Below are positions 30,703 to 33,567 of a DNA stretch of 35,018 nt, piece by piece. The notes under the pieces were generated by a model, which saw nothing but the letters and a program-made list of their open reading frames with translations, was not told where the DNA came from and ran no database searches. Numbering within the stretch: position 1 is the first letter of the stretch; each line of letters begins with the position of its first letter. Made by a program: the position numbers and the translations under genes. Source of the stretch: Polaromonas sp. (GTDB taxonomy: Bacteria; Pseudomonadota; Gammaproteobacteria; Burkholderiales; Burkholderiaceae_C). The DNA lies in the NCBI GenBank assembly GCA_025352405.1, contig JANXTM010000227.1:1-35018 (forward strand). The letters run 5' to 3'.

Positions 30703-31551
30703 TTACAGGGCCGTGCGCAGCTTCCAGATTTCCGGAAATAACACCACGTCCAGCATCTTGCGCAGGTAGCTCACGCCGCCGGTGCCGCCGGTACCGCGCT
30801 TGAAGCCGATTACGCGTTCTACTGTGGTGACATGCCGAAAGCGCCAGAGGCGAAAGGCGTCCTCCAGATCGGTGAGTTCTTCACCCAGCTGGTACAGATC
30901 CCAGTGCGCTTTGGGGTTGCGGTAGGCGACCAGCCATGCAAGTTCTACTGCCTCGCTTTCTGCATAGGCTTGTGTCCAGTCACGTTCAAGGTGGCTGGCG
31001 GGCACGGTCAGGCCCCGGCGGGCCAGCAGGCGCAGGGCCTCGTCATAGAGTGACGGTGCTTCAAATGCTTCTTGAACCTGGGCCAGCAGGTCTGGCCGGT
31101 GCGCATGCGGTGTGAGCATGGCGGCATTCTTATTGCCCAGTGCGAATTCAATACAGCGGTACTGCGCGCTTTGAAAGCCGCTTGAGTTGGCCAAGTAGGG
31201 ACGTATGGCGCTGTACTCGGGGGGTGTCATGGTGGCCAGCACGTCCCAGGCGTGGACCAGTTGCTCCATGATTTTGCTCACGCGGGCAAGTTTTTTAAAA
31301 GCATCACCCAGTTCATCTGCCGCCACGTTTGCAATCGCCGCGCGCAGCTCGTGCAGCATCAGCTTCATCCAGAGTTCACTGGTCTGGTGCTGGATGATGA
31401 AGAGCATCTCGTTGTGGTCCGGCGACAGCGGTTTTTGTGCGTCCAGAATGGCGTCAAGCTGCAGATAGTCGCCGTAACTCATGGATTTGCTGAAGTCGAG
31501 TTGGGCTTTTTCTTCACGCACGATGTCGGCCGGGTGTTGTGCTTCGATCAT
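30703..31551 (-). CDS. kynA: Tryptophan 2,3-dioxygenase
   Basis: A 282-residue heme dioxygenase that opens the indole ring of L-tryptophan to N-formylkynurenine, the first step of the kynurenine pathway. The distal/substrate segment [20 protein letters not shown] is present and the proximal heme ligand is H240 in [20 protein letters not shown]; the C-terminal [15 protein letters not shown] loop is the substrate-closing motif. Length matches the bacterial enzyme (about 280-300). It starts 1 base after the kynU stop, so translation is coupled, and it is the last gene of the kynB-kynU-kynA operon. Confidence 0.97.
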
Positions 31552-31552
31552 G

Positions 31553-32872
31553 TCATGTCACCGCGTTCTTCTGGTTGAATTCGGGCTTTTTCCATTCAGC
31601 CGTTTCTAGCACCTGTTTGAGATGTTCAACGGCGTTCCAGATGTCTTCAAATCCGATGTACAGCGGGGTAAAGCCGAAACGCAGGATGTCCGGCATACCT
31701 GTTTTTCCTGAGCACGGCCCGTCCTGAGCTTGTCGAAAGGTCGAAGAATCTCCGCTGCGGAAATCACCAATCACGCCGCGTGCAATCAAGGCTTGAACAA
31801 TGGCGTAGGCGCCCGTCTGGCGGGTCAGGCAAACTTGGGAGCCGCGCTGGGCATGATCGCGCGGCGTTGCAAGGCCCAGACCGTGGCCGCTGCAATGGGT
31901 TTCAACCAGTTCGATAAACAGGTCAGTCAGCGCAAGTGACTTTCGCCGCAGCGCTGCCGTGCCGCCCATGGGCTGCGCGGCCAAAACGGTGTCCAGCCCG
32001 CATTCCAGCGCGACCATGCTCAAGATGGGCTGGGTGCCGCACAGGTATCGCGTGATGCCGGGCGCAGGGCGGTAGTCGGGCGTGAACTCAAACGGTACGG
32101 CGTGGCCCCACCAGCCAGACAGTGGTTGCCAGAAACGGTCTGCGTGTTTGGGGTTGACCCAGACAAAAGCCGGTGCGCCAGGGCCACCGTTCAAATATTT
32201 GTAACCACAACCGACTGAAAAATCCGCCCTTGCACCGTTCAGGTCTACAGGAACGGCACCCGCGCTGTGCGCCAGATCCCATACCGTCAAAATGCCGGCG
32301 TTGTGGGCGGCGGCCGTGACGCTTTTCATATTGTGCATGGCGCCTGTGCGGTAGTTGACATGGGTCAGCATCAGCACGGCAACATCGGCTGTCAGCGCAT
32401 CGGCGAGGTCTTCAGGCTCGACCAGCACCAGACGCAGACCGCGCTGCCTGCACAGGCCTTCAGCAATGTAGAGGTCGGTCGGAAAGTTGCTGCGCTCGCT
32501 GATCAGCACCTTGCGCGTGGGTGCGTCTTCGGCAGCCATGTGCAGCGCGGCGCTCAGCACTTTATACAAATTGATCGAGGTGCTGTCGGTCGCCACGACT
32601 TCGCCGGGCGCGGCACCAATGAGTTGCGCAATCTTGTTACCCAGGCGTTGCGGCATGTCAAACCAGCCAGCGCTGTTCCAGCTACGGATCAGGCCCTGGC
32701 CCCATTCATGGGTGACGGCTTCGGCAACGCGTGCTGCGGTAGTTTTGGGAAGCGCGCCGAGCGAGTTGCCATCAAGGTAAATAACGCCTTCGGGCAGGCT
32801 GAACTGGTGACGTAGCGCGCGCAGCGGGTCTTGCGCGTCCAGGGCGCGACAGTCTTTGAGGGTTTTGCTCAT
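31553..32872 (-). CDS. kynU: Kynureninase (with in-frame insertion)
   Basis: A 439-residue PLP enzyme that cleaves kynurenine to anthranilate and alanine. Start region [19 protein letters not shown], the PLP Lys K225 in [16 protein letters not shown], and the C-terminal [19 protein letters not shown] are family motifs. The ATG at 32872 is chosen; a frame open to 32926 would overlap kynB. About 21 residues ([13 protein letters not shown] and following) interrupt the highly conserved stretch between GDFR and PDILRFGF. They are encoded by 31694-31756, whose core resembles a REP-like repeat seen in many Burkholderiales. The frame is kept, so the enzyme may still fold, but the insertion is close to the active-site/dimer region. 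About 20 residues over the usual length agrees with it. Confidence 0.95.
31694..31756. repeat. REP-like element inserted in kynU
   Basis: A 63-base block (21 codons) present between codons that are adjacent in other kynureninases. The core GTCCTGAGCTTGTCGAAAGG (31721-31740) is, from memory, a widespread extragenic palindromic element of Burkholderiales, and CCTGAGC occurs twice in the block. Insertion of a multiple of three preserves the kynU frame. Confidence 0.65.
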
Positions 32873-32885
32873 AGGTGCATTTTCT

Positions 32886-33533
32886 TCAGGGAAGTTCGCG
32901 CAGGATGGCTCTAACGGGTGAAGCATCGGCCCGCATCAACTTGAGCGGAAGCGCAATCAGTTCGTAGTCGCCTTCGGGCACATCGTCGAGCACCAGGTTT
33001 TCCAGCACGCGCAGATTGCCTGCCAGTAACTGCTGGTGGCACGGCAGGTCTTGGCTGGCGGCAGGGTCCACGCTGGGGGTGTCAATGCCAATCAGCAAAA
33101 GGGGAGTAGCTATGTTTTTTGTAGCTAAAAGCGCAAGTGTTTGTTGACCTAGAGCCGTGAAAGCTGCCCAAGATTGGCTGGCAGTGCGTGCGGTGCGCAA
33201 GAGCACGCGCTGGGGCAGGTTGTCTAGCGCATGGGCAATGTGTTCGGGCAAAACTAGTGGTCCGCTGTCGAGGCAGTGAATCACGCGGCATCGGCCAAGG
33301 TAGGGTGCCAGGTCTAGTTCGCCCGAACTCAGGCCGCCGTTGGCGTAGTGCATGGGTGCATCTGCATGGGCACCGGTGTGTGGTGACAACGTGATGCTGT
33401 TGACGTTTACGGGGCAGCCGGGGCTAAGGGAAAAGTGCAACCGCTGCGAATATGGGGTGTCACCAGGGAAGACCTCGGCACGTTCGTCAACGGCCGGTGA
33501 GATGTCCCATATTCTTATCGGTTTGGCTGTCAT
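32886..33533 (-). CDS. kynB: Kynurenine formamidase
   Basis: A 215-residue cyclase-family metal hydrolase that removes the formyl group from N-formylkynurenine. The metal-site motif [12 protein letters not shown] (H52, H56, D58, H62) and the opening [21 protein letters not shown] are diagnostic; C-terminal [11 protein letters not shown] and [21 protein letters not shown] complete the family profile. A GTG two codons upstream (33539) is an alternative start; no strong ribosome site decides. It is the first gene of the operon and kynU starts 13 bases after its stop. Part of the segment [18 protein letters not shown] is encoded by a copy of the short palindromic repeat (33088-33130) and is a few residues longer than in related enzymes. 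Confidence 0.95.
33088..33130 (-). repeat. Short palindromic repeat, copy 5 (inside kynB)
   Basis: On the minus strand GCTAC, the spacer AAAAAAC and ATAGC, followed by ...TGCTGATTGG. The same right-hand flank occurs in copy 1. It is translated in frame as A-T-K-N-I-A-T, parallel to A-T-K-I-I-A in the CitE-like gene. Confidence 0.65.
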
Positions 33534-33567
33534 GGACACGAAGGTAGCACCGCTGCAAATACTGTTG

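Follow-up and report, generated by a model that had tools for sequence, protein, structure and literature searches.

The kynU gene and its loop segment

The window, by which we mean the whole analysed stretch of 35,018 nucleotides, comes from a draft Polaromonas genome (G000) whose 346 contigs amount to 3.78 Mb. The features considered here are as follows.

32886–33539, minus strand: ORF upstream of kynU, with a motif that we take to be kynB arylformamidase-like
31553–32926, minus strand: kynU, kynureninase, one intact open frame of 457 aa, carrying the segment
31739–31756, minus strand: first part of the presumed older repeat copy with flank (AGCGGAGATTCTTCGACC), placed by aligning it with the one-copy loop of G017
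31721–31740, plus strand: 20-base core GTCCTGAGCTTGTCGAAAGG, named in the original prediction, with related cores elsewhere in the genome
31715–31738, minus strand: inner copy of the repeat, 24 nt translated FRQAQDGP, whose borders may shift by ~2 bases
31691–31756, minus strand: whole loop between VIGDFR and DILRFGF, 66 nt or 22 codons, residues 396–409 predicted to be disordered
31691–31714, minus strand: second part of the presumed older copy with flank (TGCTCAGGAAAAACAGGTATGCCG), placed by the same alignment, GGTATGCC being common to both loops
30703–31551, minus strand: kynA, tryptophan 2,3-dioxygenase, directly downstream of kynU (TIGR03036, 431.9 bits vs. a cut-off of 390.7)

The product of kynU was assigned to the kynureninase family TIGR01814 with 306.9 bits (cut-off 246.4) over profile positions 1–400 of 400, and its closest named relatives were found in Polaromonas. 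If the ORF at 32886–33539 is kynB, the genes form a kynB-kynU-kynA cluster. Just 50 of the 87 congeners, some of whose genomes are incomplete, gave a kynU match with a best E under 1e-80, and the original prediction of an essential gene is thus not supported. Comparison of the window genome with G018, G017, and G032, with both variable loops removed, gave dN/dS values of 0.10–0.11 (NG86) at a dS of 0.8–0.9, which is near saturation. By this measure, kynU outside its loops is under purifying selection (dN/dS ~0.1), the enzyme being kept and the loop varying freely. An assembly error or a decaying pseudogene would be in line with the fragmented draft and with the decayed state of the repeat copy in the window; against it stand the intact frame, the family score over the cut-off, the dN/dS of ~0.1, and a one-copy version of the loop in G017, a genome assembled as one contig, and we regard it as very improbable.

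The loop was compared over 50 rows, made up of 49 loci from 47 genomes of the genus (own included) and Polaromonas sp. C04. Forty-five rows were free of the repeat, with loops of 6–36 nt (24–30 nt in 42 of them). The core was found in the other five, always in the same orientation: the loop measured 66 nt in the window genome, 42 nt in G017 and C04, which hold one copy (AGDPSTGSGRTG..), and 66 nt in G025 and G001, which hold two (AGDPSTGSGQAPSTGSGRTG.P). Among 43 named relatives aligned (44 were found; one short fragment was omitted), the translated repeat occurred in the loop of Polaromonas sp. C04 only. Opposite the window loop, the Pseudomonas fluorescens kynureninase 1QZ9 showed a 20-residue gap, and a gap this large was seen only against 1QZ9. 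Because close relatives already have 8–10 residues at this place, the net gain of the window loop is 12–14 codons and not 22. The original prediction had described 63 bases, or 21 codons, added to a stretch that is normally continuous in kynureninases. An extra segment in frame is indeed present, and the stretch is short in relatives; it is not continuous there, however, and the 22 codons do not represent a clean 63-base insert. The alignment of kynU from sister strains, proposed at the same time to define the empty site, provided the repeat-free and filled rows given above. Loops of the same length without similarity to the repeat, which would have pointed to an ordinary loop, were looked for, and the other two 66-nt loops proved to be repeat pairs.

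Removal of 24 nt from the window loop left 42 nt collinear with the loop of G017 (31/42 identical, flank GGTATGCC in both), with four neighbouring cuts scoring equally, and the removed 24 nt plus one neighbouring base matched 21 of 25 consensus positions. Because the remainder is collinear with G017 and the removed part fits the consensus, the segment is probably an older copy (PST..SGRTG) with a second copy (FRQAQDGP), since decayed, inside it. This is not the unique reading, as a two-copy ancestor like that of G001 would also yield 66 nt. The same figures describe the decay of the window copy, the older part keeping 31/42 of the G017 loop and the inner part 21/25 of the consensus.

In an AlphaFold2 model of the kynureninase built from 31 sequences (mean pLDDT 79; best PDB match 1QZ9), the loop was located between strands 388–390 and 413–418, with pLDDT below 50 for residues 396–409. 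Low pLDDT is not loop-specific, because the model has other low-confidence parts (residues 1–18, 267–297, and 455–457, also below 50). Residues D413, L415–G418, and T420–Y423, just behind the loop, were invariant in the 31 sequences. As to the altered activity that the original prediction considered possible, the loop disorder predicted by the model and the purifying selection elsewhere in kynU point instead to tolerance of the segment.

The dispersed repeat and its in-frame copies in other genes

As derived from its genomic contexts, the repeat has a half-unit of ~26 nt (CCGTTCGYCCTGAGCYTGTCGAAGGG), behind which an inverted partner follows in several places. The 20-base core GTCCTGAGCTTGTCGAAAGG occurred once in the window, and none of 100 shuffles held a match to it at ≤3 mismatches. 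In the source genome, the 18-mer core was found at ≤3 mismatches in 18 places vs. five in the reversed control, and the exact 17-mer CCTGAGCYTGTCGAAGG in eight vs. none. These counts, which come from a genome-wide search that the original prediction had recommended, together with the open frame of 457 aa, bear out its central claim that a repeat lies in frame inside kynU. The spread of repeat-free loops over 6 to 36 nt (45 rows) would suit an ordinary variable loop that resembles the repeat by chance, but the shuffles (0/100), the empty reversed control for the 17-mer, and the cleaner copies in the same loop of four relatives leave such an explanation next to no probability.

The exact 17-mer was detected in 50 of the 87 genomes of the genus (own included; no control matches) and, in a sample of 299 Pseudomonadota that again contained the own genome, in 22 (one control match overall), with a maximum of 114 copies per genome. 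The distribution of the repeat is patchy. At an E-value limit of 1, similar sequence was recovered from 47 plasmid records (20 from Moraxella, 14 from Sphingobium), and 19 of these records spanned at least 80% of the repeat pair. The repeat or a look-alike was observed on plasmids of Sphingobium, Moraxella osloensis, Novosphingobium, Polaromonas sp. P1-6, and others, including distant Pseudomonadota; carriage on plasmids could aid its travel. One inverted pair from the source genome, with a z-score of −6.9, had a fold energy of −24.6 kcal/mol. Neither the half-unit (z −0.35) nor the window copy (z 0.16) folded better than shuffles, and there was, by this comparison, no signal of a hairpin within the window copy itself. 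Five of the six reading frames of the half-unit are open; unusual openness of the frames was ruled out, since 1410 of 2000 shuffles were equally or more open. A longer composite repeat, approximately CGATACGCCGTCAGGCGTACCCTGT-core-GGTCAGCCCGAACGG, recurs in G017 (L161, L163, L173, L175, L181, L189, and others). In the literature searched (supplements were outside its scope), the 14-base repeat cores were not found, 13-base core substrings and repeat translations gave matches only under unrelated titles, and we found no name for the repeat. The repeats that PMC2755013 mentions are CRISPR.

Five of the 12 repeat loci examined in the source genome lie in frame in conserved genes: kynU, an acyl-CoA dehydrogenase, the large subunit of a xanthine dehydrogenase, an HsdR-like protein (between domains), and an N6 DNA methylase fragment at a contig end. 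The corresponding numbers were 3 of 26 in G017 (kynU, xanthine dehydrogenase, and a MutL linker) and 3 of 14 in G025 (acyl-CoA dehydrogenase, a MutL linker, and PanE), to which the kynU copies of G025, deviating from the exact pattern, are to be added. All these counts are lower bounds, Pfam having been run on 18 of the 40 listed ORFs above 150 aa and on the methylase fragment. Several further ORFs contain the repeat at their far N-terminus, where it may not be translated. An insertion of this kind within a gene had been called unusual in the original prediction; with the same repeat in frame in several other genes, it is less so.

Empty sites were available for two of these hosts. For the acyl-CoA dehydrogenase, 31 rows were compared (the best 30 loci and the own one): the five that hold the repeat have a loop of 51 nt, and the 26 that lack it have one of 33 nt. 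The gain at this locus is a clean net 18 nt at one junction (L192 in G000; L223–L226 in G025, G012, G013, and G014). In the large subunit of xanthine dehydrogenase, G000 and G017 hold the repeat in a loop of 108 nt. Of the 29 other rows, 19 have 9 nt at this place, and ten have a longer loop free of the repeat, which in two of them was not delimited. This loop follows the motif RKRNLYG (L004 and L193 in G000; L155 in G017), and in G065 (L197) it is a repeat-free, tandem-looking stretch of 174 nt. Over 17 in-frame cases, which were counted post hoc and are not independent by descent, the repeat was read as PST(G/S)SG in 12 (once as PSAGSG), as RQAQ in three, and as PELVEG in two. The PST(G/S)SG reading resembles a flexible linker, and selection for loop-compatible frames could be a source of this preference.

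Scatter of filled loops over the kynU tree

The kynU protein tree was built with both variable loops cut out. It comprised 46 rows after omission of four of the 50 (L109–L112; partial, second, or distant copies), or 42 rows when four further long-branch rows (G050, G080, G045, and G033) were also omitted. The five carriers of the repeat require five changes on the tree, at least four of them forced by well-supported branches, and G017 is placed among four relatives with empty loops. A single vertical origin of the five filled loops was rejected (42 rows; cost of 181 log-likelihood units, p-AU 1e-30) for a group that had been defined by the repeat, an earlier tree having already been seen. The number of changes and the rejection of a single clade speak for recurrent, site-preferring insertion, by which the repeat would have entered the same kynU junction in the same orientation several separate times, without allele exchange. 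Also in its favour, no exchanged tract was visible beside the first loop, either over the 57 nt that precede it or over the 132 nt that follow it (45 rows); no site there had a letter found in at least four of the five carriers and in a minority of the other rows. However, the derived two-copy layout is common to G001 and G025, and the flank GGTATGCC to G000 and G017, and because of these common features allele sharing is favoured. For the first loop, one origin of the filled alleles combined with exchange or repeated loss is plausible.

Another dispersed repeat, unrelated to the first (GPHAPPLRGSLPPEGA..), lies in frame at a second site of kynU in 6 of the 46 rows.

kynU, between QVCL.. and GAYAIVQ: second-site carriers L094–L099 (G014, G060, G059, G004, G026, and G006)

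Two consecutive copies were present in G026. The site could not be delimited in 3 of the 46 rows (G085, G067, and G080), and G085 and G067 were scored empty in the 42-row test. The six carriers require six changes on the 42-row tree, all of them forced, and their union in one clade was rejected (p-AU 0.00018). This second repeat gave 30–49 matches in each of nine genomes, with scoring limited to 40 candidates per genome. The six inserts were 89–100% identical to each other, those of G014 and G060 being the same though the two genomes stand in different clades, and 76–95% identical to 14 genomic copies that were hand-picked from the top matches (one to four per carrier genome and one in G000). 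Among the copies compared, the nearest sequence to each insert was another kynU insert, with a margin that is small in places: the G004 insert agrees with a genomic copy of G059 at 95% identity and with its nearest kynU insert at 96%. Because the inserts resemble each other more than they resemble genomic copies, filled alleles of one origin, exchanged or repeatedly lost, are the most likely explanation at the second site. The relationship of these six inserts also stands against recurrent insertion at the first loop, which we regard as rather unlikely overall.

Three further observations concern the second repeat. A shorter segment at the second site of G073 (L101), EHRPHAPPQGGDS, looks like a remnant of the repeat that has lost its middle. 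In G059 (C92:31554–31626), a match to the second repeat is situated where the match to the acyl-CoA dehydrogenase described above breaks. At L159 and L177 of G017, the first repeat adjoins sequence like the second (GGCGGCCCC..GGGGGCAG), as if one repeat had inserted beside or into the other.

The scatter of filled alleles over the kynU tree is new, and it is the most interesting side of the locus. We tentatively suggest, as a possibility of less than even probability, that the two kynU loops are, within this genus, shared landing places for two unrelated repeats. Filled alleles would either pass from one species to another through short-tract recombination or arise repeatedly by site-preferring insertion, selfish DNA thus setting the length of the loops.

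Comparison with known intragenic repeats

With a probability of roughly 85%, we consider the segment to be a dispersed palindromic repeat, mobile or once mobile, that occupies a permissive hairpin loop of kynureninase without disturbing the frame, is tolerated there, and works in the manner of Rickettsia palindromic elements (RPEs). Such a repeat would move, or would have moved, as a non-autonomous element by means of another enzyme. Selection would retain a copy only if it falls in a loop or linker and has a net length divisible by three. The effect on kynureninase would be near neutral, and part of the scatter of filled loops would come from allele exchange between species or from losses.

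RPEs are elements of 105–146 bp with terminal inverted repeats from Rickettsia (Ogata et al., cited in the extracts of PMC2229807). As described in the same extracts, they are dispersed and, like the present repeat, occur in intergenic DNA as well as in frame within conserved genes. Their host proteins can stay active: a guanylate kinase of Rickettsia that carries an RPE does so with changed substrate affinity (PMC2229807, extracts). For kynU, the purifying selection is an indirect sign that the protein may be made and active. Relatives with the empty site exist for the kynU, xanthine dehydrogenase, and acyl-CoA dehydrogenase loops. Unlike RPEs as they appear in these extracts, the units within genes add ~12–24 nt each and belong to free-living Comamonadaceae. 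The repeat may be likened to RPEs by its way of working, on the basis of published descriptions. The altered affinity of the guanylate kinase, the position of the kynU loop directly before the invariant residues D413, L415–G418, and T420–Y423, and the filled loops in several lineages could also suggest an adaptive insert, in which the longer loop would alter substrate affinity, stability, or partners and be kept by selection. We find this quite unlikely, given that 45 of 50 rows do without the segment, that the carriers differ in the frame and length of the inserted sequence, and that unrelated proteins hold the same repeat in frame.

Intragenic GTAG and CGTC REPs (Di Nocera et al., 2013; PMC3733652, extracts) are short, mostly intergenic, and often arranged as inverted pairs; some lie in frame in repair or metabolic genes, and different REPs occupy approximately the same recB site in two species. 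The present repeat resembles them in its shortness, its mostly intergenic location, its frequent inverted pairs, and the position of some copies in frame in genes. It differs from the GTAG REPs of this account in that its half-unit CCGTTCGYCCTGAGCYTGTCGAAGGG has no terminal unpaired GTAG. The CGTC layout given there consists of a CGTC tag, a stem of 8–9 bp usually beginning with AT, a loop of 4–5, and a CCA-like tail; the half-unit, set apart by this text description, has no such stem and folds weakly. Of the 87 genomes, 84 had the Y1_Tnp domain (PF01797). No core was found at ≤2 mismatches in nine regions around RAYT-type genes, a minority of those listed; the nine included that of the source genome, which starts 107 bases before the match, and had other flanks mostly of 1.5–3 kb (~150 bases on one side of L115). 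Mobilisation by RAYT was rejected for want of a flanking repeat in these nine regions. No mobilising gene for the repeat was found in them, and no transposition was observed. The designation as a REP-like element thus holds in the sense of a dispersed, extragenic-type repeat and fails for a classical REP as characterized in the extracts, both by layout and by the nine RAYT-type regions. MITEs fused in frame to ORFs, namely ERIC, YAPL/RU-2, and Correia elements (~100–170 bp; PMC2229807, extracts), are similar in being small non-autonomous repeats that supply extra peptide segments, and differ in size from the unit of ~26 nt found here.

The intragenic-repeat phenomenon is known but uncommon, and the kynU case is a new example of it. 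Intragenic repeats, known from Rickettsia and a number of REP-bearing species, are thereby extended to free-living Comamonadaceae, in the form of a short repeat. For annotation, the case calls for caution, since translated repeat DNA can be the source of peptides like PSTGSGRT, RQAQD, and PELVEG. With empty, one-copy, and two-copy loops present in living relatives, the tolerance and the spread of the repeat are directly testable.
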